Origin: Planctomycetaceae bacterium
Lineage (GTDB): Bacteria; Planctomycetota; Planctomycetia; Pirellulales; Pirellulaceae
Length of the DNA stretch: 59,793 bases
Assembly (NCBI GenBank): GCA_024225195.1
Contig: JAAEMV010000199.1
Coordinates: forward strand, 1-59,793
Reading direction: 5' to 3'
Positions 16,832-51,518 of the stretch are shown piece after piece; the first letter of the stretch is position 1, and each line of letters begins with the position of its first letter. Under the pieces are notes generated by a model, which worked only from the letters and a program-made list of their open reading frames with translations, was not told the DNA's origin and searched no databases. Made by a program: the position numbers and the translations under genes.

Positions 16832-18055
16832 ATGAAACGCGGAAAGTCAGGCTGGATGTTTGTCTTGGGGCTAATTGGATCGGGAGCTTTGGGGCTCTCC
16901 GGTGTCCAAGGACAAACGATTAACAATGTAGGAACACCCGCAACGGTAGTTTCTTTTCAAGACGATGCAGCAACTCCCGCACCTGTTGCGGAACCGGTTG
17001 TCTGCTGTGATTCCGGGCTCGGTGAGCCACGGACATTATTTGGTAACGGATGTTCAGATAGTTGTCTGAACATCGGTGGCTGGTTTGCCATGGGCGTCCA
17101 TTCCAAATCGAATGATCTTTTCAACTCGAATCCAGATTCTTTTGACTTGAGTCAAGGCTGGATGTTTGTTGAAAAGGAAGCAAACTCCACATGTGGTGAA
17201 CTTGCTTTCGGTTTCCGTTTTGACGCGATGTACGGTGTCGATGGTCCTGACACTCAGGCGTTCGGCAATCCTGGTCCAACTTGGGATCGCGATCCTGCCT
17301 TTACACGTGGCGGTAAGTACGGCTGGGCTTTGCCACAGCTTTACGGTGAAGTTGCCATGGGTGACTTGAGCGTCAAGATCGGACACTTCTATACCTTAGT
17401 TGGTTACGAGTCCGTTCCTGCTCCGCAGAACTTCTTCTACTCACACTCAATCATGATGTACAACAGTGAGCCCTTTACTCACAGTGGTGCTATCGCAACG
17501 TATGAGATGAATAACTGCACCACATTGTACGGTGGATGGACAGCTGGTTGGGATACTGGATTCGATCAGTTTGGTGACGGCAGCACTTTCTTGGGCGGCT
17601 TCACTCGCAAGTTCAACGACGACGCATCGTTCACCTACATGACCACCTTTGGTGATCTTGGTGCTCGTGGCGACGATGCTTACTCACACAGCATGGTTCT
17701 TGATTTGCAACTAACTGAGCACTTGCAGACCGTGTTCCAAAGTGATGTGCTACGAGTCGGCAGCACTGGCGAAGACAATTTTGCACTTAGCAATTACATG
17801 TTCTACACAGTTTCAGATCGTTTGACTGTTGGCCGACGTATTGAGTGGTGGAAAGGTGACAATGTCACTGGATACGCTCCTCACGGCGGAACTCTTCCTG
17901 CAAGTGGATCGCACTCGCAATACGAAGGTACCTACGGATTCAACTACCGAGCGACTTCGAACCTAACGGTTCGTCCTGAGTACCGATACGATTGGTCTCC
18001 TGGACTCGATTACAAAGCGAACATCTTTGGAATTGATTTCGTGATGACGTTCTAA
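16832..18055 (+). CDS. Outer-membrane beta-barrel porin (BBP2-like)
   Basis: A 407-residue protein starting at an ATG just after GGGTGGTGAC. An in-frame start 84 bases earlier would place charged residues ahead of a good signal peptide (MKRGKSGWMFVLGLIGSGAL, cleavage near GVQGQ) and is rejected. The mature part alternates polar and hydrophobic residues in many short strands, is rich in Gly, Tyr, Trp and Phe, and ends in Phe (IDFVMTF), as outer-membrane barrels do. Phrases such as LPQLYGEVAMGDLSVKIGHF and TVFQSDVLRVG match the planctomycete and proteobacterial BBP2/OmpL-like porin family. Codons are visibly biased to C-ending forms compared with neighbours, and a strong terminator follows, both suggesting high expression. 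Its position opposite amt suggests a nutrient-uptake role. Confidence 0.88.
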   Translation: MKRGKSGWMFVLGLIGSGALGLSGVQGQTINNVGTPATVVSFQDDAATPAPVAEPVVCCDSGLGEPRTLFGNGCSDSCLNIGGWFAMGVHSKSNDLFNSNPDSFDLSQGWMFVEKEANSTCGELAFGFRFDAMYGVDGPDTQAFGNPGPTWDRDPAFTRGGKYGWALPQLYGEVAMGDLSVKIGHFYTLVGYESVPAPQNFFYSHSIMMYNSEPFTHSGAIATYEMNNCTTLYGGWTAGWDTGFDQFGDGSTFLGGFTRKFNDDASFTYMTTFGDLGARGDDAYSHSMVLDLQLTEHLQTVFQSDVLRVGSTGEDNFALSNYMFYTVSDRLTVGRRIEWWKGDNVTGYAPHGGTLPASGSHSQYEGTYGFNYRATSNLTVRPEYRYDWSPGLDYKANIFGIDFVMTF

Positions 18056-40448: not shown

Positions 40449-42236
40449 ATGTTGGAACGATTCACTGCTCTTTGGTTTGCAAGACTGTTGGTGATTTTGG
40501 CGGGTTTGAATTCGTCAAGCGAACTGATGGCGTTAGAAACTTTAAACAGCTCTGATGAAAAGTCTCCGCCGAATGTGTTGTTTATTTCACTCGATGATCT
40601 AAACGATTGGGTTGGTTGCCTCGGTGGCCATCCACAGGCGCATACGCCAAACCTAGATCGGCTTGCTTCGACCGGAGTGTTGTTTACCAACGCACATTGT
40701 CCGGCTCCCGCCTGCAATCCGTCCCGAACCGCCATCATGACGGGAATTCCACCCTACCGTTCAGGCTTGTATGACAATCGGCAAAAAATGAGAACGGTGT
40801 TACCGGATGCAGAGTTGTTACCAAAATATCTTTCCCGGCATGGGTATTGGTCTGCAGGTTCGGGGAAATTGCTGCACTACTTTATCGATGCAAAATCATG
40901 GGATGAATACTTTCCGAATAAAGAAACTGAAAACCCTTTTCCGCGAACTCTAATGCCTGAGCAGCGTCCGGTAAATCTTCCTCTTGGTGGAAATTGGCAA
41001 TACCGCGAAACAGATTGGGCACCGCTGGATGCAACCAATGAAGAGTACGGTGGAGACTGGTTGGTTTCTGACTGGATCGGGAAGCAGCTGAAGAAAAAAC
41101 ATGATCGGCCATTTTTTTTAGCCTGTGGCATTTATAGACCGCATGAGCCTTGGTTCGTGCCCCAAAAATATTTTGATCAATTTCCAATTGAAACAATTCA
41201 GTTACCGCCAGGTTACCGAGTTGATGATCTTGATGATTTGCCCGCCGAAGGTAAGCGACGTGGTCCGAATCGGTATTTCGAACACATTCGTAAACACGAC
41301 CAGTGGAAACAAGGAGTGCAGGGTTACCTTGCGTCAATTGCGTTTGCGGACGAGATGGTTGGCCGCGTTCTTGACGCTTTGCAGGCAGGACCCAACCGCG
41401 ATAATACGATTGTCATTCTGTGGAGTGATCACGGCTGGCATCTTGGTGAAAAACAGCATTGGCAAAAATATACGGCCTGGCGAGCCTGTACCCGGGTGCC
41501 TCTAATCATTCGGGTTCCAACTCAAACGCCGGGGCTTGAGGAGGGAACACAGGCAGGTGGAGTTTGTGACCAGCCGGTTAACTTAAGCAGTCTATTTTCG
41601 ACTGTAACCGAACTGGTCGGGCATGCACGGGAATTGAACCCTGAGGTGCCGAGTCTTGTACCTCTACTAAGAAACCCATCTTCTGAATGGGATCACGTAG
41701 CCGTGACCTGTTTAAGTGAACCGGGAAGTTATGGATTGAGTACGTCCGACTGGCGGTACATTCGTTATGCAAAAGGAGGTGAAGAGCTCTATCGGACATC
41801 TGCCGATCCATACGAATGGGACAATTTGGCCTCTAAGCCTGAGTACCAGAATGTCATCAAAAATTTAAGCGAAAAAGCACCCATTCGATTTGCACCAAAG
41901 AAAGAGTTTCAGGGAGCATTTTTTAGCAAGGTGATTTTGCCAATGAGATACTCCTCACCTTCCCCGGCATCCTCACCGGTTGGTGGGCGGTTTCAAGTCG
42001 AATTTGATAATCAAACGGATGCTCCTGTATTTCTGTACTGGAGAGATCAAAAAAATAGCGTCAAGCTTTATGGTAAGATAAAAGCGGGAACCCAACGGCG
42101 TCAATTTACCCGAAAGGGTGCTGTTTGGATGATTACAAAAACGGAAGTTTCACCTTCTGATGTTCGGTGGAGTGAGTTAGGTCATTTTGTAATTGGCAAG
42201 GGTTCGAGTCGAGCAGTTATTAAGAAAAATAAGTAG
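40449..42236 (+). CDS. Secreted sulfatase (CNPSR), iduronate-2-sulfatase-like
   Basis: A 595-residue type I sulfatase with an N-terminal signal segment. The metal strand PNVLFISLDDLNDWVG and Cys89 in CPAPACNPSRTAIMTG follow the pattern of iduronate-2-sulfatase-like enzymes. GSGKLLHYF takes the place of the usual GKWH motif. ILWSDHGWHLGEKQHWQKYTAW carries the late metal ligands, and its GEKxHWxK form again fits that group. About 100 residues after the sulfatase core (490-595) form an extra beta-sandwich-like domain (GRFQVEFDNQTDAPVFLYWRD). The next sulfatase starts 24 bases downstream, so both are probably one operon. A 2-O-sulfated uronate-type substrate is plausible but unproven. Confidence 0.9.
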   Translation: MLERFTALWFARLLVILAGLNSSSELMALETLNSSDEKSPPNVLFISLDDLNDWVGCLGGHPQAHTPNLDRLASTGVLFTNAHCPAPACNPSRTAIMTGIPPYRSGLYDNRQKMRTVLPDAELLPKYLSRHGYWSAGSGKLLHYFIDAKSWDEYFPNKETENPFPRTLMPEQRPVNLPLGGNWQYRETDWAPLDATNEEYGGDWLVSDWIGKQLKKKHDRPFFLACGIYRPHEPWFVPQKYFDQFPIETIQLPPGYRVDDLDDLPAEGKRRGPNRYFEHIRKHDQWKQGVQGYLASIAFADEMVGRVLDALQAGPNRDNTIVILWSDHGWHLGEKQHWQKYTAWRACTRVPLIIRVPTQTPGLEEGTQAGGVCDQPVNLSSLFSTVTELVGHARELNPEVPSLVPLLRNPSSEWDHVAVTCLSEPGSYGLSTSDWRYIRYAKGGEELYRTSADPYEWDNLASKPEYQNVIKNLSEKAPIRFAPKKEFQGAFFSKVILPMRYSSPSPASSPVGGRFQVEFDNQTDAPVFLYWRDQKNSVKLYGKIKAGTQRRQFTRKGAVWMITKTEVSPSDVRWSELGHFVIGKGSSRAVIKKNK

Positions 42237-42260
42237 CCTGTTATTAATTAGAGGGCGGAG

Positions 42261-43673
42261 ATGTTAAAGCAAATCGGTTTTACAGTCTTGGTACTGGCAG
42301 TAGGGTTTGTCAGCGCGGTCGCTGCTAACGCCGAAGAGAGGCAGCCGAATATCATTCTTATGATGGCTGACGACGTCAGTTGGGAGGCCTTTGGTTCCTA
42401 CGGTGCCGAAGATTATAAAACCCCAAATTTGGATCAACTTGCTTCTCAGGGAATGCGATTCTCGCATTGCTATTCGACACCGATATGCACGACGTCTCGG
42501 GTGAAAATCATGACCGGGAAGTACAATTTTCGAAATTACACCCATTTTGGATATTTGAATCCAGCCGAGAAAACGTTTGGGCACTTACTCCAAGCGGCAG
42601 GATATAAAACGGCGATTGCTGGAAAGTGGCAATTGAACGGGCTCTATAATTCGCTTCCTGGTCACTTAGATGCGTCTCGGCCGATTGCGTCGGGGTTTGA
42701 CGAATACATGCTCTGGCAGTTGACGACTCAAAAAGGAAATGCCGCATCGAAGGGAGGCGAGCGATTTTGGAGCCCGCCACTGGAACACAACGGTAAATTT
42801 TTAACGAAAGAGATGAATCACGGGAAATACGGGCCGGATTTGTTTTGCGATTTCATTTGTGATTTTATGGAACGCAATCAGTCGAAACCATTCTTCGTCT
42901 ACTACCCCATGGTTTTAGTCCATGACCCATTTGTACCGACACCAGATACCCTCGGCGACCAACCGCTTGCCACGGCTAATAAAGCGCCAAAAGACAAGGC
43001 GAAGCGTAAGGAAAATTTTGTGGCGATGGTAAATTACATGGATAAAATTGTCGGACGGATTGTCGACAAAGTCGATGAAATTGGGCAGTCAGATAATACG
43101 ATCATTTTGTTTACTGCTGACAACGGAACCAACACGCAGATTACCTCACGCTGGAATGGGCAGGAAATTAGAGGTGGCAAAGGTGGCATGAAAGATAACG
43201 GTACTCATGTCCCGTTAATTGCCTATTGGAAAGGGCATACTCCGTCTGGTTTAGTGTCTAACGATTTGATTGATTTCACTGACTTCTATGCGACCTTCGC
43301 ACAGACTGCAGGAGTCGAATTGGGTCCAAATGATCCGCGGGACGGAATGAGTTTCCTGCCGCAATTAAAGGGGAACCCGGGGACACCACGAGACTGGGTG
43401 TTTTGCCATTATGAGCCTTACTGGAACAAAAAGTCGGGGCAGTTTGTGCGTAATCAAAATTTCAAACTGTATCGAAGTGGCGAGTTTTTTCAGGTGCCCA
43501 AGGATTTGTCAGAGGCAAACAATTTAAATGGAACAACTGATCAAGAGGTCCAGAGAGTGTTGACTCAACTGAGCGGGGTGATGGAGCAATCTCCACCTGC
43601 TCCCCAAGGAGAAAAGGCCGGCAAGAATACCAAGCAGCGCCCTCTTTACCCTAATTGGAAAATGAAAAACTGA
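42261..43673 (+). CDS. Secreted sulfatase-family protein with non-consensus CTTSR motif
   Basis: A 470-residue sulfatase-fold protein. GGGCGGAG precedes the ATG closely, and a signal peptide ends near AANAEE. The metal strand is PNIILMMADDVSWEA, and later residues are in GKWQLNGLY and LFTADNGTNTQIT. At the formylglycine site the sequence is CTTSR (Cys76 in TPICTTSRVKIMTGKYN): the proline of C-x-P-x-R is threonine, one base away from CCG. Maturation by formylglycine-generating enzyme could be weakened, or the protein could work without it. It is the second gene of a two-sulfatase operon, 24 bases after the upstream stop. The rest of the active site looks intact. Confidence 0.87.
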   Translation: MLKQIGFTVLVLAVGFVSAVAANAEERQPNIILMMADDVSWEAFGSYGAEDYKTPNLDQLASQGMRFSHCYSTPICTTSRVKIMTGKYNFRNYTHFGYLNPAEKTFGHLLQAAGYKTAIAGKWQLNGLYNSLPGHLDASRPIASGFDEYMLWQLTTQKGNAASKGGERFWSPPLEHNGKFLTKEMNHGKYGPDLFCDFICDFMERNQSKPFFVYYPMVLVHDPFVPTPDTLGDQPLATANKAPKDKAKRKENFVAMVNYMDKIVGRIVDKVDEIGQSDNTIILFTADNGTNTQITSRWNGQEIRGGKGGMKDNGTHVPLIAYWKGHTPSGLVSNDLIDFTDFYATFAQTAGVELGPNDPRDGMSFLPQLKGNPGTPRDWVFCHYEPYWNKKSGQFVRNQNFKLYRSGEFFQVPKDLSEANNLNGTTDQEVQRVLTQLSGVMEQSPPAPQGEKAGKNTKQRPLYPNWKMKN

Positions 43674-45107: not shown

Positions 45108-46592
45108 ATGAAAGGCTGGATTAGCAAGCCCTGCCTATTTTTGATCGAGACGATGGATTACTGCCCCAAAATTTTGATTGTCGAAGATCAAGCTTCGATG
45201 CAACAATTACTCGAAGATTTTCTGGGGCCTGCTGGTTTCGAAATCACTTGCTGTAATTCCGCTACCGAAGCATGTGAATTACTTGGCATAGATTCGTCTG
45301 CCATCACATCTGATAATTTTGATTTTGGGACGTCATCTGAGGAATCGAATACGCTCGGATCAGCTGAAATTCCTGAGTTTGATTTAATCCTGACCGACGT
45401 CAAAATGCCGGGAATGGATGGGTTGGAATTTTGCCGAAGGGTTAAGCAGCGGTTTGCTCATTTGCCAGTTATTGTCATGACTGCGTACGGGAGCTTGGAA
45501 ACAGCGGTTGAGGCATTGCGGGCTGGCGCTTTCGATTTTGTTACAAAACCAGTTGAGCTCGCATTGTTGAAAGCATCTTTGATACGCGCTGCTGAGTACA
45601 ATCGGCTGAGAAATCGAATTCGTTTGTTAGAGTCGCAAATTCAAGCGGAGACGTTTGATACGCTAATTGGTCAAAGCGATGTAATGCTTCGATTAAAAGA
45701 GCAACTGTCGCGAGTGGTGGATTCGCCGGCGGCGGTTTTGCTCACTGGTGAAAGTGGATCGGGTAAAGAAGTTGTCGCTCGAGCACTTCACCAGCAGAGT
45801 CGCCGAGCTAAACAACCGTTTATTGCAGTCAATTGTGCGGCGTTGCCCGAATCGTTATTAGAGAGTGAGTTGTTCGGCCATGTGAAGGGTGCATTTACTG
45901 ACGCGAATGCAGATCGTGTAGGGCTCTTTTTGCAAGCCAATGGAGGGACGTTATTTCTAGATGAGATCGGTGAGATGCCGATTGAGATACAACCCAAGCT
46001 ATTGCGGGCTCTGGAACAAAAAACAGTACGTCCGGTTGGGGGGAAATCGGAACAGCCATTTGATGTTCATTTGATCACGGCCACCAATCGAGATTTGGAA
46101 GCGGCAATCGAGCAGAAAACGTTCCGTGAAGATTTATATTATCGAATCAATGTGCTGGAACTCACTGTGCCACCGCTGCGAAATCGTGGTACCGATGTCC
46201 TTTTGATTGCAAACTACTTTTTACAACAGTTTGCGGTGTCGATGGATAAAAGTGTAGATGGGTTTGATGACGAGGTGCTTCATCAATTTCTTCAATATGA
46301 TTGGCCCGGCAATGTTCGAGAATTACGCAACATTGTGCAGAGGTCGATTGTCTTAACACAACAGGCGACCATTAATTCAGATGTTTTACCAACCAAAATT
46401 TCAAACTATCAGTCGAAACAGCTAGTGATCGACGAGGGCGACAATCAACCACTCGATTCCCTCGAGGTTATTGAGCGGCGATACATTCGATATGTACTTG
46501 AGCGAACGGGCGGGAACAAAACGGAGGCTGCTAAAGTTCTTGGCCTGGACCGAAAGACACTTTATCGCCGCCTCAAAGAAAAAGATGAATAG
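45108..46592 (+). CDS. NtrC-family sigma-54-dependent response regulator
   Basis: A 494-residue transcription activator with three domains. The receiver (about 20-155) has the acidic pair in IVEDQ, phospho-acceptor Asp97 in LTDVKMPGMDG, Thr125 and Lys147. The AAA+ sigma-54 interaction domain has Walker A GESGSGKE, the contact loop KGAFTDA in place of GAFTGA, and Walker B GGTLFLDEIGEM. The C-terminal Fis-type helix-turn-helix is in GGNKTEAAKVLGLDRKTLYRRL. The receiver contains about 28 extra, Ser/Asp-rich residues (61-88) before the phospho-acceptor strand. ATG 45153 is an alternative start. The kinase gene converges on it with seven bases between stops, and a sigma factor with a sigma-54 promoter lies beyond. 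Confidence 0.93.
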   Translation: MKGWISKPCLFLIETMDYCPKILIVEDQASMQQLLEDFLGPAGFEITCCNSATEACELLGIDSSAITSDNFDFGTSSEESNTLGSAEIPEFDLILTDVKMPGMDGLEFCRRVKQRFAHLPVIVMTAYGSLETAVEALRAGAFDFVTKPVELALLKASLIRAAEYNRLRNRIRLLESQIQAETFDTLIGQSDVMLRLKEQLSRVVDSPAAVLLTGESGSGKEVVARALHQQSRRAKQPFIAVNCAALPESLLESELFGHVKGAFTDANADRVGLFLQANGGTLFLDEIGEMPIEIQPKLLRALEQKTVRPVGGKSEQPFDVHLITATNRDLEAAIEQKTFREDLYYRINVLELTVPPLRNRGTDVLLIANYFLQQFAVSMDKSVDGFDDEVLHQFLQYDWPGNVRELRNIVQRSIVLTQQATINSDVLPTKISNYQSKQLVIDEGDNQPLDSLEVIERRYIRYVLERTGGNKTEAAKVLGLDRKTLYRRLKEKDE

Positions 46593-46599
46593 TGACTAA

Positions 46600-48066
46600 T
46601 TATTCTGTTTGATCGTTACTTGCCGTGTTGGTTTCTGTTTTATCAAGTACTGCTTGATCACATGGTATCCGAACTGTCATGGTTGTTCCCTTTTCAGGAT
46701 TGCTTTGACAATCGATACTGCCGCCGTGCTCTTCGATAATTCCATGAACAATTGAGAGCCCAAGCCCCGTTCCCGAGCCGACTTCTTTGGTTGTAAAAAA
46801 TGGCTCAAAAATCACGTCCAGTTGATTTTGTTCAATGCCGGAACCATGATCAATGACCTCAATTTTCCATTGGGCATCTTTTGGTTGAGGGTGCAGGCAG
46901 ATGGTGACCGGTTGGTTTGCCGACGAAGCATCAACTGCGTTGTCGATCAAATTCATGATCACCTGCTGAAGTTGATTGAAGTCGAAACTGGCTTTTGCTG
47001 GCGTTGTGGGGAGGTTCGCGATTAGTTTGATTTCCTGTTTGTCAGCAAGAGGCTGGATCAGATCAACGGAGTGCTGAATGACTTCGCGCAGGTCGTTTGT
47101 TGACTTTTGGCTTGGGCTCCGTCGAGAGAAATGCAGTAATTTCTGAATGATTTTTGAGATCCGCTCTGACTCAGTCTTCACCGCGGTGGCGTGTTTTGCA
47201 ATTTGTTCGGGCGATCGGTTGGGATCACTGAGAATCATTTCGGCGCGGCCGGAAATGACATTTAATGGTGTCCCGACTTCATGCGCAAAACCAGCGGCGA
47301 GTTGACCAACTGTTTTTAATCGGTCTGCATGACGCAATTGCTCGATTGCGTCGATCCGTTGGTGCGTTTCCTTTTCAATCGTTTGCTGCTGTTGACGCAG
47401 ACGATCACACATTTGATTCACGGCACCTGCCAGTTGTCCAAGTTCATCATTGGCATGAATTTTAAGGTCGCTGGAAAAATCACCTTTCCCAACACGTTCC
47501 ATTTTGTTTGTGAGGCTAGCTAAAGGCGTTGCGATCCAGCGAACGCCAGCAATCATGACGACTCCAATGCACATAAAACCGGTCGCGACAATAATGAAAA
47601 TTGCCGTAAACCAGTTGGATCGCGATTGAGAATCAAGATCATTGAGTGGAGTTGCGATTTCCACAGCACCCTGTCGGCCATCTAGGGTTACTGGGACGTA
47701 GGTAAAATATTTTCGTTTGCCACCACTGGCAGTATCAATGGTGGAAACGGGTTGCCCGTTGGAATTGTTGATAATCGATGGGTCGATTCGAACAACTAAC
47801 GAATCCGTTTCTAACCAAGTCCATCGAATGCGAGTCCCATTATTGGCTAAGGTTCTTACCAAATTTTCGAAATAAATATTTGTTCCGGTATTGGCAGCAG
47901 TTTGAAACCCAGATGTTTTTTGATTTGCATCGACAGAAGAGGCAATCGCGCGGTGACGTTTTTCGAGCCCGGCAAAAGATTGCATGCTGGCAAGTTGACT
48001 GGCCATAATCGTGACAGCAGAGACTGCAATTATGAACAACAAAATCAATTTAGCCGCAAGTTTCAT
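46600..48066 (-). CDS. Membrane sensor histidine kinase
   Basis: A 488-residue kinase: membrane helix 1 (5-25), an extracytoplasmic sensor region of about 125 residues, membrane helix 2 (152-175), a HAMP linker (about 175-228), a dimerisation/phospho-acceptor helix with His262 in GFAHEVGTPLNV, and the catalytic domain with N box NLIDNAVDAS, G1 DHGSGIEQ and G2 GTGLGLSIVHGI. The HEVGTPLN form of the H box is typical of kinases paired with NtrC-type regulators. The gene is tail-to-tail with the response regulator and head-to-head with the sigma-factor gene. It is therefore the likely partner of the former and perhaps indirectly controls the latter. The signal sensed is unknown. Confidence 0.93.
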   Translation of the reverse strand: MKLAAKLILLFIIAVSAVTIMASQLASMQSFAGLEKRHRAIASSVDANQKTSGFQTAANTGTNIYFENLVRTLANNGTRIRWTWLETDSLVVRIDPSIINNSNGQPVSTIDTASGGKRKYFTYVPVTLDGRQGAVEIATPLNDLDSQSRSNWFTAIFIIVATGFMCIGVVMIAGVRWIATPLASLTNKMERVGKGDFSSDLKIHANDELGQLAGAVNQMCDRLRQQQQTIEKETHQRIDAIEQLRHADRLKTVGQLAAGFAHEVGTPLNVISGRAEMILSDPNRSPEQIAKHATAVKTESERISKIIQKLLHFSRRSPSQKSTNDLREVIQHSVDLIQPLADKQEIKLIANLPTTPAKASFDFNQLQQVIMNLIDNAVDASSANQPVTICLHPQPKDAQWKIEVIDHGSGIEQNQLDVIFEPFFTTKEVGSGTGLGLSIVHGIIEEHGGSIDCQSNPEKGTTMTVRIPCDQAVLDKTETNTASNDQTE

Positions 48067-48431
48067 TTTGTCGAATCGTTTCGTGCAAGCGGAGGATAAA
48101 TCACCGCCAGTGAGATTATGTGCTAGTCAATTGCGTCTTCAGAATTTATCACCGCAATGGGCGTCCGTTTTATTCTACCCCGCAAACGGACAAAACAATC
48201 TAAATTTGAGTAGGTGTCATTAATATTCGCTTCAATTGATAGCGGTGTAGCATTATGCCGCGCGCGGGGATTTAGGAAGCGCAGGGGCATAGGAAGCGAA
48301 TTGCAGGATATTCATTTAAGCCCGTGTTTTATTGGTTTTATGTCGAAGTCCAAGTCGGAAGCGGATTTGGTTCAGTTTGGCACGGCGAATGCTTTTCTTA
48401 GGGCTCAAGGGCAATTCAGTAGGAGGGCAAG
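48067..48431. other. 365-base divergent region between histidine kinase and sigma factor genes
   Basis: It carries the sigma-54 element described separately, the perfect palindrome CCGCGCGCGG at 48258-48267 (about 110 bases upstream of that element), and two TAGGAAGCG direct repeats at 48273 and 48290. ATCACCGC occurs twice near the kinase start (48100 and 48148). Any of these could bind a regulator. No separate gene is evident. Confidence 0.5.
48376..48392 (+). promoter_or_regulatory. Sigma-54 (-24/-12) promoter of the sigma-factor gene
   Basis: The sequence TTTGGCACGGCGAATGC contains the full -24 consensus TTGGCACG and a -12 box ATGC, with GG and GC exactly ten bases apart. The start site would be near 48403, followed by AGGAGG at 48421 and ATG at 48432. 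The gene pair next door encodes a sigma-54 activator and its kinase. Confidence 0.75.
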
Positions 48432-49868
48432 ATGTTGGAGTCAGGGAATCAGTCGCTAACCGGATCATACCGCCACCATCAAAGCGAGGTGTTATCTCAT
48501 CAATGGGCGCCTGCGGAATTTGCTCTTCCGGTCTTCGACAGTCGTCGCATTCCCGGAACTGGAAAGGGCATGGGACAGGTGACGATGGTTGCCAACGAGC
48601 GGATCGAATTGAGATTTCCCCCCGCTCAATCTAAAAAGTCGAAACGTCCCGCTGCAAATTCAAAAAGGCGGCAACGGCGGCCAACCACATGCAGTACGAA
48701 ATTTGACTTCGTAACAGAATCACGGCTGCTCAATCGTGATGAAGAGCGACAATTGGCGACGCAAATTTTTCGCTACCGACAAGCGTTTCAAAGATTAGCT
48801 TTAAAAGAAGCCGAAGTCCTCAATCATTTGATTGGTTTGATCCGACAGTGGAAGTCTGGCCATCTGCGAATCGATTCAATTTGCAACATGGGTTTGAGTG
48901 AGTCTCAGAAGCGAAAAAAAGTAGAACCCAAATTACGAGCAAGCATTCGAAAATTAGAAAAACTGTCGACCCAACTGCAAACAGGAAGTTCAGAGCTAAG
49001 GAGACGTAGTCATCGTGAAATTATCGAGATCGTAGAGAGCTTGATGTTACGTCCCAAGTGTTTCGAATCAGCTCCATTTCAAGGGGAGTTGGCCGAGGAA
49101 ATGTTTCGCGAATACCAGATGCTTTGTCAAAAAATGATGTTGGCGAATGGGCGGTTGGTGATTCAGGTGGCTCGAAAACTATGTGGTAACTCGCAAATTT
49201 TTTCGGACATGATTCAGGAAGGTTACTGCGGTTTGATTCAAGCGGTCACAAAATTTGATCATCAATGTAATGTTCGATTTTCGACCTACGCGACCCCTTG
49301 GATTAAACAGGCAATTTTTGGAGCGATATCAAATTTTCAGCGGAACATAAGGGTCCCGGAAAATTTCCGAGCCTCACACCGCAAAGTCGCTAGAAAAATT
49401 GAGGAAATTAGAAATCAGGGTTTTGAGTTCACTGGGCGAAACTCAGGAGTGGAAATCTCGTTAATTGCTGATCATGTAAAGATGTCTGTCAAAGATGTTG
49501 AACGCCATTTCCAAGTTCAAAGAGATACCTGCTCGCTTGACGCTCCGGGGAGTCGTTCCGGTGTGGGTGAAGCTTCAGAGAGTTCGGTCGTCTCAGCAAT
49601 CGCTGATCAAGCAAGCCCCGCACCGGATTTGTTGGCGATTGAAAAGGAGAGAGTTCAACGGATTCGAAAGATGATGGCTCAGTCTTTAACTTCCCGGGAA
49701 CGGGAAGTCATCTCACTTCGTTTTGGATTTCGAGATGGAAGCGGTAAGTCTTTTTCGGAAGTCGGACGGGAGATGGGATTGACCCGTCAACGAGTTTGTC
49801 AGGTCGAAAAGCAAGCTTTGGCAAAGCTGGAACAAGTGACTGAAAAATGGGTCGCTATAACTTCATAA
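48432..49868 (+). CDS. RpoD-like sigma-70-family sigma factor (group 2)
   Basis: A 478-residue RNA polymerase sigma factor with a perfect AGGAGG five bases before ATG. The first 90 residues are variable, with a basic linker (about 67-83). After it come a region 1.2-like segment (TESRLLNRDEERQLATQIF), a non-conserved helical spacer (about 120-240), and regions 2.1-2.4 (VIQVARKLC, MIQEGYCGLIQAVTKFD, FSTYATPWIKQAI). Region 3 and region 4 follow, ending with the promoter -35 recognition helix (SLTSREREVISLRFGF, FSEVGREMGLTRQRVCQVEKQAL). Region 1.1 of the housekeeping factor is missing, so this is an alternative sigma factor. The upstream sigma-54 promoter suggests it is switched on by the adjacent two-component pair. 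Confidence 0.93.
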   Translation: MLESGNQSLTGSYRHHQSEVLSHQWAPAEFALPVFDSRRIPGTGKGMGQVTMVANERIELRFPPAQSKKSKRPAANSKRRQRRPTTCSTKFDFVTESRLLNRDEERQLATQIFRYRQAFQRLALKEAEVLNHLIGLIRQWKSGHLRIDSICNMGLSESQKRKKVEPKLRASIRKLEKLSTQLQTGSSELRRRSHREIIEIVESLMLRPKCFESAPFQGELAEEMFREYQMLCQKMMLANGRLVIQVARKLCGNSQIFSDMIQEGYCGLIQAVTKFDHQCNVRFSTYATPWIKQAIFGAISNFQRNIRVPENFRASHRKVARKIEEIRNQGFEFTGRNSGVEISLIADHVKMSVKDVERHFQVQRDTCSLDAPGSRSGVGEASESSVVSAIADQASPAPDLLAIEKERVQRIRKMMAQSLTSREREVISLRFGFRDGSGKSFSEVGREMGLTRQRVCQVEKQALAKLEQVTEKWVAITS

Positions 49869-49973
49869 ATTGTGATCTTGAGTCGAACGCAAATTAGATG
49901 GAAATTTGAGTTTAGCGAGAAACTGGGTTAGTATGCGATTGCTAATTACAACTTGTTTCGCGATATAATTTCT

Positions 49974-51518
49974 ATGACTAAAATCGATCGTTGGATATTG
50001 ACTGTCGTATTCTTGCTGCTTTTACTGACTAAAAGTTTGTATGCGGAAAATCCAAATATCATCGTCATTTACACTGATGATCAAGGGTTCGGCGATGCAA
50101 GTTGCTTGAATCCGGGTGCAAAATTTTCGACACCCAATTTGGATCGGTTGGCACGAGAGGGAGTCTCGTTTACCAATGGCCATTCGAGCGATACGGTTTG
50201 CACACCCTCGCGGTATGGTCTTTTGACGGGACGGTATTGTTGGCGGACGTCGAAAAAGTCGGGTGTGATGCAGGCAGAAGGAGATTGCTTGATTGCTGAT
50301 GGACGGATGACACTTCCGTCGATGCTTCGCGACCAGGGTTACGACACCGCGATGGTGGGCAAGTGGCATCTGGGCATGGACTTCCCTGGTACTGCGAAAA
50401 CTCGCGATTGGAGCCAGCCAGTTCAAGACATGCCTCTCGATAAAGGATTTAATTACTTTTTCGGGATTCCCGCATCCTTGAACTACGGAGTTTTGGCGTG
50501 GTTTGAAGGACGGTATGCCAAGGTTCCGCCGACAGTTTACACGGCAAAAAAACCAAACAAACGTCATATGGATTACCGGATCAAGCCGCCCTATCAAGCC
50601 ACGCCTCAGGAAACACAAACAGCTCTTGGAAAATTAGGGATGGAGGTTGCTCCGGATTTTATTGATAACCAGTGTTTAACGCGTTTTACAGACGTCGCAA
50701 TTAGCTGGATGGAGTCAAGAAAAAAAGGTTCAGAATCCAGCAAACCATTCTTTCTTTATCTCCCGTTCACCTCACCGCATTACCCTGTGTGCCCATTGCC
50801 AAAATTCTGGGGGCAAGGAGAGTGTGGAGGCTACGGTGAGTTTGTTATTGAAACCGATCATCATGTCGGGCGAATTTTATCATTTCTAAAAACATCGGGT
50901 CTGGACCAAAATACGATGGTGATTTTTACGAGTGATAATGGCCCGGAGAAGTCGTGGAAAGAGCGTGTGACAGAATTCAACCACCGCAGTAATGGTAATT
51001 ATCGTGGTGGCAAGAGAGATATTTACGAAGGTGGGCATCGTGTTCCGTTTTTCATACGTTGGCCTGAAGGTATCAAGCATCCGGGACGAACCACCAATCA
51101 GTTGGTAGGGCAAGTTGATATTTTAGCGACCGTTGCAGAATTAATTGGTGCGGAATTACCTGACAATGCAGGTGAGGATAGCCAAAGTTTTGCAGCTCTC
51201 TTGACCCAACAAAAAACAGTTCATCAACGTGTGCCTCTCATCAATCATTCCGCTTCCGGGCGTTTTTCGATTACCGAAGGCGAGTGGAAATTAATCTTGC
51301 CTCACCGAAAAAGCAAACGGGAGCTCTATCAGTTGTCGTTAGATCCGAGCGAGCAGAAGAATGTTCTGTCAGAGAATCCAGTGATCGCGCAGCGGCTGGA
51401 AAACAAAATTACAGAAATTGTATGTCAGGGTCGGTCTACACCCGGTTTACGGCAATCCAACGATACAGGTTATTGGAAAGATCTGAATTGGATTCGGCCA
51501 GAACAATACAAGCAGTGA
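49974..51518 (+). CDS. Secreted sulfatase (CTPSR), arylsulfatase type
   Basis: A 514-residue type I sulfatase. The ATG beginning MTKIDRWILTVVFLLLLLTK was chosen as it starts a clean signal peptide; a TTG seven codons earlier is also in frame. The metal strand is PNIIVIYTDDQGFGD, formylglycine Cys76 is in DTVCTPSRYGLLTGRYCWR, GKWHLGMDF carries Lys/His, and IFTSDNGPEKSW holds the late metal ligands. The YRGGKRDIYEGGHRVPFFIRWP segment is typical of arylsulfatase A-like enzymes. The gene lies 61 bases upstream of the deacylase/BPL_N fusion and may be co-transcribed with it. It is the only sulfatase of the six not adjacent to another. Confidence 0.92.
   Translation: MTKIDRWILTVVFLLLLLTKSLYAENPNIIVIYTDDQGFGDASCLNPGAKFSTPNLDRLAREGVSFTNGHSSDTVCTPSRYGLLTGRYCWRTSKKSGVMQAEGDCLIADGRMTLPSMLRDQGYDTAMVGKWHLGMDFPGTAKTRDWSQPVQDMPLDKGFNYFFGIPASLNYGVLAWFEGRYAKVPPTVYTAKKPNKRHMDYRIKPPYQATPQETQTALGKLGMEVAPDFIDNQCLTRFTDVAISWMESRKKGSESSKPFFLYLPFTSPHYPVCPLPKFWGQGECGGYGEFVIETDHHVGRILSFLKTSGLDQNTMVIFTSDNGPEKSWKERVTEFNHRSNGNYRGGKRDIYEGGHRVPFFIRWPEGIKHPGRTTNQLVGQVDILATVAELIGAELPDNAGEDSQSFAALLTQQKTVHQRVPLINHSASGRFSITEGEWKLILPHRKSKRELYQLSLDPSEQKNVLSENPVIAQRLENKITEIVCQGRSTPGLRQSNDTGYWKDLNWIRPEQYKQ

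Follow-up and report, generated by a model that had tools for sequence, protein, structure and literature searches.

A predicted sigma-54-dependent signalling cassette with a sigma-70-family output and its link to HtrA in a planctomycete family

In the 59,793-nucleotide contig JAAEMV010000199.1 of a Planctomycetaceae bacterium (assembly GCA_024225195.1), which in its whole length is called the window here, a gene for a sigma-70-family factor appears to be read from a sigma-54 promoter and stands beside the genes of a sensor histidine kinase and an NtrC-type response regulator. The same kind of promoter precedes the gene of HtrA, a periplasmic protease of envelope repair, in many relatives, and therefore the sigma gene looks like one output of an envelope-stress system. 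Altogether, the locus is likely a stress-signalling cassette with interchangeable outputs, serving a response to envelope or protein-folding stress. An earlier note on this DNA had proposed a cascade from kinase to activator, sigma-54 and a sigma-70-family factor, and this proposal is supported by conservation and gene order. The window is contig C199 of a 6.43 Mb draft genome (G000), in which a search found one RpoN gene. The features are as follows:

48377..48392, + strand: predicted sigma-54 -24/-12 promoter TTGGCACGGCGAATGC, from sequence, weight matrix, shuffles and conservation
48432..49868, + strand: sigma-70-family factor of 478 residues with Pfam regions 2 and 4, no region 1.1 found and a lineage-specific N-terminal part
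46600..48066, - strand: membrane sensor histidine kinase (HAMP, HisKA, HATPase), from Pfam, alignment and a medium-confidence AlphaFold model
45108..46592, + strand: NtrC-type response regulator (receiver, AAA+ with GAFTDA loop, Fis-type helix-turn-helix with the segment DRKTLYR), from Pfam and alignment
48247..48269, + strand: probable activator-binding site (upstream activating sequence, UAS), GTAGCATTATGCCGC then GCGCGGGG, with the core GCATTATGC at 48250-48258, from conservation and recurrence before HtrA
48258..48267, no strand assigned: palindrome CCGCGCGCGG, overlapping the right part of the UAS block; GCGCGCGGGG is invariant in eight close genomes, and G118 has CCCCGCGTGGGG there
48421..48427, + strand: Shine-Dalgarno-like AGGAGGG ahead of the sigma gene; 10 of the 13 positions of 48419-48431 are invariant in eight genomes

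In the putative promoter ten bases separate the GG of the -24 element from the GC of the -12 element, whose C lies 40 bases upstream of the ATG at 48432, in agreement with the element that the earlier note had read at 48376-48392. Transcription is predicted to start at about 48404, some 12 bases downstream of -12. When the 119,586 positions of the window were scanned with a hand-written -24/-12 weight matrix, TTGGCACGGCGAATGC alone reached a score of at least 18 (18.2; runner-up 14.5). This score was not attained once when the dinucleotides of the intergenic region (365 bases) were shuffled 300 times. Regarding the whole genome, 20 perfect TTGGCACRN5TGC sites were found, where a hand estimate for random sequence gives about 6. 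With up to one mismatch there were 227 sites vs 139 for the reversed pattern, and a pattern match alone is therefore weak evidence.

Relatives of the sigma gene were sought in 241 genomes of the family with the sigma-specific N-terminal part as query, because a full sigma profile, used on 392 genomes of the phylum, was swamped by general sigma-70 proteins. Fourteen genomes scored at least 142 bits: 11 of the 28 genomes of the window's genus (g1, the window's genome included), two of g50 and one of g28. The next match, G007 of g8 at 75.5 bits, was added as a fifteenth because kinase and regulator adjoin the sigma gene there as well. In a sample of 397 genomes of the class nothing exceeded 74 bits except the window's own gene. 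The number of first-look candidates scored per genome was up to 16 for the family and up to 9 for the class, so that a sigma copy may have been missed.

Kinase and regulator genes adjoin the sigma gene in all 14 loci chosen by sigma score alone, and in G007. The window's order, in which the kinase is divergent from the sigma gene and lies tail to tail with the regulator, recurs in 13 genomes (the window's, ten others of the genus and the two of g50), while in G027 and G007 kinase and regulator form a pair that lies on the strand opposite to the sigma gene and is divergent from it. Thus the gene order, whose conservation the earlier note had singled out as a check, is widely kept. Seven close genomes share the window's neighbours on both sides, and in G573 only the left-hand neighbour was seen to be kept. 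Both neighbours are different in G118, G049, G572, G027 and G007; in G575 the right one differs and the left is off the contig. As the neighbours change and the kinase, regulator and sigma genes are constant, the trio stays together while its surroundings vary. No kinase or regulator was found beside the sigma gene within the fetched stretch of the next matches (G048, G094 and G120), and the borderline matches of G048 and G094 had neither a -24/-12 site of at least 12 nor a UAS. Likewise, 80 loci of named relatives with generic sigma-70 matches (29-39% identity) had no kinase or regulator at E 1e-40. Six rows among 76 background sigma sequences (duplicates included) reached at least 12, counting the cassette member G007 and one duplicate; sigma-54 control is therefore not general for sigma genes.

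The promoter itself follows this conservation. In eight close genomes, 11 of its 16 positions are invariant, including TTGGCA and TGC, and the variable ones lie mostly where the consensus is loose, whereas only 22 of the 91 bases just upstream (48286-48376) are invariant in the same genomes. Between the kinase and sigma genes, all 15 related loci have a -24/-12 site that reads toward sigma and scores from 12.2 to 19.9, so that a further check named in the earlier note came out in favour of the element. The share of shuffles (300 for each region) reaching the observed score was 0 in 12 regions, 0.003 in G007, 0.007 in G027 and 0.017 in G572. With the sigma starts of G573, G572, G118 and G027 moved by us to an inner ATG, which affects these distances, the distance from the -12 C to the ATG is 40 bases in nine of the 15 regions and 36-45 in four others. 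Overall, the sigma-54 promoter is almost certainly real.

Some other sites were seen on either strand. A reverse promoter, by which the kinase gene might regulate itself, was sought on the kinase strand; the window has no such site (best score -0.9), and weak ones occur in some relatives. In G118, G049, G573, G570 and G571 a reverse-strand TTGGCATNAAANTTG lies upstream of the kinase gene, with GT or GA instead of GC at -12, and nothing like it was seen in the window. Weaker -24/-12-like sites of the window (12.4-14.5) are at 17740(-), 30865(-), 24527(-) and 53895(+).

Upstream of the promoter, 21 of the 23 positions of the block 48247-48269 are invariant in the eight close genomes, with a cross-genus core GCATTNTGC at 48250-48258. 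The core pattern [AG]CA[AT]T[ATC][TC]G[CT] occurs in all 15 regions, from GGGGCATTATGCCCC in G118 to GTAGCATTATGCCGC in the window, and in a share of 0.06-0.16 of shuffles per region; as the patterns were drawn from these same loci after inspection, the fairer evidence is the conservation of the UAS and its recurrence before HtrA. The centre of the UAS is 125 or 126 bases from the -24 GG in eight of the regions, 110-149 in five and 71 in the two g50 genomes, and the exact extended pattern occurs once in the genome. The block is probably the activator site. The palindrome that the earlier note had taken as a candidate for this role does exist, although the adjoining and overlapping GCATTNTGC block is a likelier activator site than CCGCGCGCGG alone. 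Given the linkage described above, the neighbouring regulator very probably activates the sigma promoter.

The link to HtrA came from the regulator search, which covered the 28 genomes of the genus at one score threshold. In G570 and G571, members of the genus with no sigma match found, the orthologous regulator (63-64%) and kinase (53%) adjoin an HtrA/DegP gene, which is preceded by TTGGCATGCCGGTTGC or TTGGCACACCTGTTGC plus a GGGGCATTTCGC site, the -24/-12 scores being 18.1 and 18.6. In the case of the window's own genome, a second cassette (G000:C138:10022-14820, L274) holds an HtrA gene with the promoter TTGGCACGAAGTGTGC and the UAS GCGGCATTTTGCCCC, and its regulator is 52% identical to that of the window. 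At the search threshold, eight members of the genus showed a regulator of this second kind, and all eight carry the sigma cassette as well. Several loci hold both outputs. The sigma open reading frame (ORF) overlaps a following HtrA ORF in G118 and G049, and in G007 HtrA lies 3' of the sigma gene with a -24/-12 site of its own (14.7), these loci belonging to two genera other than the window's. In G006 and G103, which are single-contig genomes, kinase, regulator, UAS, promoter, HtrA and sigma stand in line; in G072 the sigma gene is likewise 3' of HtrA, and in G055 it is divergent from HtrA with its own -24/-12 site (18.6).

To describe this link across the family, the best 30 HtrA loci from 119 genomes of the family were taken, and a site of at least 12 was sought in the 700 bases that precede the matched part. 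A promoter was found in 26 of 30 loci, and promoter plus UAS in 18 of 30. The controls were 126 other open frames of 250 codons or more from the fetched loci; some of these may not be genes, and their 700 bases were measured from the frame start. A promoter preceded 4 of the 126 and both elements 1, and the UAS pattern stood before the best site in 12. The four promoter misses are G118 and G049 (HtrA behind sigma), G086 (10.9) and G104 (16.3 if searched from the ORF). A kinase-like gene lies in the stretch in 15 of 20 HtrA loci with wide flanks. Regarding membership of the Do family, trypsin-like and PDZ Pfam domains were present in 6 of 6 HtrA proteins, and four of the six scored above the TIGR02037 cut-off of 416.2 (430.5, 429.5, 423.3 and 449.7), with G118 (414.7) and the genome's own C138 protein (408.0) just below.

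The perfect sites of the window's genome point in a similar direction. Twelve of the 20 perfect sites were followed, and ten products behind such sites were scanned with Pfam (four without a family). The ORFs following such sites include the sigma gene, HtrA, a DUF1549 protein, a cytochrome oxidase subunit and a protein with a cold-shock domain. Others encode Cpn60 (47 bases), DnaK (69) and SecA (319), and these three hint that in this genome protein folding and export are under sigma-54. PMC12316311 reports sigma-54 promoters in Planctomycetia before genes of chaperones, ATP-dependent proteases and ZraR-like regulators, and the sites before Cpn60, DnaK and others fit the enrichment at chaperone genes published there. 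In Rhodopirellula baltica, chaperone genes and secA are induced by heat shock, according to PMC2754498.

Related sites were also seen elsewhere. The perfect sites of Cpn60, SecA and DnaK lie at G000:C59, C193 and C621 (L035, L041 and L047). A MoxR-type ATPase gene (G000:C161:2845-4184, L392) is preceded by CTGGCACACCGATTGC, a -24/-12 site, and by the UAS-like GGGGGAAAATGCCCC. In G120:C1019 (L220:1349-1684) a single UAS, GGGGCATAATGCCTC, is shared by a MoxR gene, 76% identical to that of C161, and a sigma-70-family gene divergent from it, and each of the two has a -24/-12 match on its side (17.1 for MoxR, a weak 10.3 for sigma). Another sigma-70-family gene of the window's genome (502 residues, G000:C768, L393) has TTGGCACTAGGGCTGC about 57 bases upstream and, on its other side, a divergent ORF that by our reading starts like a J-domain protein.

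Several observations weigh against an envelope-stress cassette under sigma-54. Regarding the promoter, all scores depend on a hand-written matrix, matches are weakest in G572, G027 and G007 (12.2-12.6), the best site of G027 faces the kinase (14.3 vs 12.4 on the sigma side), and the distance from -12 to the ATG, already affected by the moved starts, is as long as 117 bases in G027 and 185 in G007. Regarding the UAS, its patterns come from the loci in which they were counted; in the window's genome the pattern, two mismatches allowed, hardly exceeds its reversed control (26 vs 19), and for the extended pattern, three allowed, there is no excess at all (3 vs 4). In the case of HtrA, the sigma genes beside it in G111 and G086 have UAS-like sequence and a best -24/-12 site of only 6.9 and 10.9, respectively. 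Kinase and regulator together stand next to HtrA in 5 of the 20 widely flanked loci, so that cassette linkage is looser for HtrA, and in 40 genomes chosen from other families the best 30 HtrA loci included 2 with a promoter and 1 with both elements, so that the link is mainly a feature of the window's family. For R. baltica, PMC2754498 reports cold induction of an htrA and no regulation of rpoN under heat shock. Lastly, envelope or protein-folding stress as the stimulus, which we favour with modest confidence, rests mainly on the HtrA link.

Of the alternative explanations, the one that survives best is a plain Borrelia-like cascade, a lifestyle or developmental switch with no envelope stress, in which the sharing with HtrA would reflect an ancient regulator family only. 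It would account for the genus-g1 sigma loci where the sigma gene stands without HtrA, and the signal may have changed, the regulator being only 52% identical to its counterpart in the genome's own HtrA cassette. We regard it as unlikely, as in G570 and G571 HtrA takes the place of sigma beside the orthologous kinase and regulator, and in G118, G049 and G007 it lies 3' of the sigma gene. Less probable still is that the promoter depends on sigma-54 and is activated by another enhancer-binding protein such as that of C138, the neighbouring pair serving something else or acting jointly. Cross-binding is plausible because both regulators of the genome have the LDRKTLYR helix-turn-helix segment and both UAS share GCATTNTGC; the constant company of kinase, regulator and sigma in the 14 loci speaks against it, and G572, G575 and G119, which have the sigma cassette, each showed no more than one such regulator at the search threshold, in drafts 83-88% complete. 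A chance -24/-12 match is hardly credible: consensus matches are weak evidence alone, as the mismatch counts above show, but the site recurs in all 15 regions, keeps its 40-base distance in nine and retains invariant consensus bases amid drifting sequence. A PEP-CTERM/exosortase-type PrsK-PrsR system is just as improbable, since the regulator's match to TIGR02915 (PEP-CTERM response regulator; 373.7 bits) is below the curated cut-off of 502.6 and the AtoC, NtrC, LuxO and ZraR models score higher, although no exosortase search was made.

Returning to the stress cassette, the sigma-70-family protein would be its effector. Pfam regions 2 and 4 were found in all 15 sigma proteins (E 0.01), region 1.2 in six and region 3 in three, and region 1.1 was not among the Pfam matches. 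The window's protein, with regions 2 and 4 only, is in line with the earlier description of an RpoD-like factor without region 1.1. It did not pass the curated RpoD model (RpoD_Cterm, 159.6 bits vs a cut-off of 354), and is thus not classed as the primary sigma factor RpoD, nor did it pass the RpoS model (153.5 vs 378.7). In a tree built with a quick method (branch support from the Shimodaira-Hasegawa-like approximate likelihood ratio test), with long branches and G103 left out, the thirteen g1 and g50 proteins group with a support of 100, G027 joins at 86 and G007 at a deep support of 52. The sigma genes beside HtrA in G006, G072, G111, G086 and G055 fall outside the window's sigma group and are therefore not called orthologues here.

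At the position aligned with what we take to be W433 of RpoD, our reading of the alignment gives Pro in 12 of 15 members, the window's included, Leu in one and Trp in two. The -35-binding helix of region 4.2 reads TRQRVCQVE in 9 of 15, again including the window, and TRERIRQIE in two aligned SigA proteins. These altered promoter-contact residues suggest that the sigma factor has a promoter set of its own. Somewhat more likely than not, it relays the signal to further stress genes.

Regarding the signalling pair, the receiver, sigma-54 interaction AAA+ and Fis-type domains of the regulator all exceed the Pfam cut-offs, as expected of an NtrC-type enhancer-binding protein; its true start may be 33-45 bases later than 45108. 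The sigma-54 contact loop is GAFTDA in 12 of 15 regulators compared, the window's included, and GAFTGA in three. The segment DRKTLYR is common to 14 of the 15 (LDRKTLYR in 12 of these), G027 having DRTTLYR. An extra stretch of about 30 residues lies inside the receiver domain in the g1 and g50 sequences covering it, and is missing in G027 and G007. The N-terminal helix of the kinase begins MKLAAKL and is followed by a part of about 115 residues that we read as lying outside the membrane, and then by HAMP, HisKA and HATPase. Its AlphaFold model is of medium confidence (predicted local distance difference test 72.4, predicted template modelling score 0.38), and the sensor domain could not be placed. 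ORF layout and Pfam domains thus agree with the divergent kinase and tail-to-tail NtrC-type regulator first noticed from the letters. Sulfatase-type genes flank the cassette, one at 49953-51518 by Pfam and two starting at 40449 and 42261 (span 40449-43673) by weak similarity to it; they are kept in the closest genomes, and none was seen downstream of sigma in G573.

As a whole, the proposed mechanism would run in four steps. The membrane kinase would sense a perturbation beyond the inner membrane, in which the envelope or protein folding is probably affected. Judging from family and linkage, it would then phosphorylate the regulator, which, at the step where the comparative evidence is strong, would bind at GCATTNTGC, the centre of this site being some 125 bases upstream of the -24 GG, and would open the promoter at 48377-48392 together with RpoN. 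Finally, the sigma-70-family factor, some of whose promoter-contact residues are unlike those of RpoD, would redirect RNA polymerase to a second gene set. The outputs would be HtrA in many relatives, HtrA and sigma together in some and sigma in 11 of the 28 genus genomes, the window's own genome having a second cassette that would drive HtrA. Support differs by part: comparison argues strongly for promoter and site, and constant linkage at the sigma loci points to the pairing of kinase and regulator.

In mainly non-subscription literature, no link of sigma-54 to HtrA or of sigma-54 to sigma-70 in planctomycetes appeared in titles and abstract openings among the matches listed; a study by Studholme and Dixon (2004) of Pirellula sp. 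strain 1 may contain related predictions. The link of HtrA to a sigma-54 cassette with a sigma output thus appears to be new, and the logic of a sigma-54-to-sigma cascade is already known. Among similar systems, ZraSR serves envelope stress. The window's pair resembles it in its NtrC-type regulator and in a kinase profile whose best match among solved structures is ZraS (9jfj); it differs in its sigma or HtrA output and in scores below the model cut-offs (kinase 164.1 vs 479 bits for ZraS, regulator 374.7 vs 760 for ZraR), so that membership was rejected. The Borrelia system differs in gene flanking and in the conserved upstream site: in the window the kinase and regulator genes flank sigma, a conserved upstream site is present and the HtrA link is new. 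The likeness lies in the succession of NtrC-type activator, sigma-54 and sigma-70-family factor, as set out in PMC11109971, which also describes BosR acting on rpoS mRNA. The parallel to Hk2-Rrp2-RpoN-RpoS drawn by the earlier note thus stands in its logic, whereas the product is not RpoS and the parallel misses the HtrA biology suggested by the relatives.

The HrpX/HrpY-HrpS-RpoN-HrpL system also leads from two-component input through sigma-54 to a sigma factor; however, HrpL is an extracytoplasmic function (ECF) factor and the two-component system activates the activator's gene (PMC8103513). A general association of sigma-54 with sigma-70/32-type genes (COG0568) is reported in PMC12316311, whose main text does not contain the terms htrA, degP or COG0265. 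In E. coli, according to PMC8103513, QseEF acts with RpoN on the rpoE P2 promoter and RpoE drives degP/htrA. Common to both are a two-component pair with an NtrC-type regulator, a sigma-54 promoter before a stress sigma gene and HtrA in the response; RpoE is, however, an ECF factor with further promoters and itself drives htrA (same source). In the window's family the sigma factor is a 478-residue sigma-70-family protein, and predicted sigma-54 promoters would read htrA directly.

The planctomycete envelope is unusual, and to our knowledge few regulatory circuits of these bacteria have been worked out. If the proposed mechanism is true, the locus would represent a complete and testable stress pathway of sensor, activator, DNA site, promoter and effector, and its promoter would offer a reporter of envelope stress. 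It would also show that a stress protease and a sigma factor are exchangeable under one kind of promoter, and would extend the relay from sigma-54 to a sigma-70-family factor beyond Proteobacteria and spirochaetes. As a tentative picture, the family may run its envelope or protein-folding stress response chiefly via sigma-54, with a portable cassette of kinase, activator, UAS and promoter whose output is swapped between HtrA, HtrA with sigma, and sigma alone, the sigma factor taking the role of the E. coli ECF factor sigma-E with altered promoter specificity.

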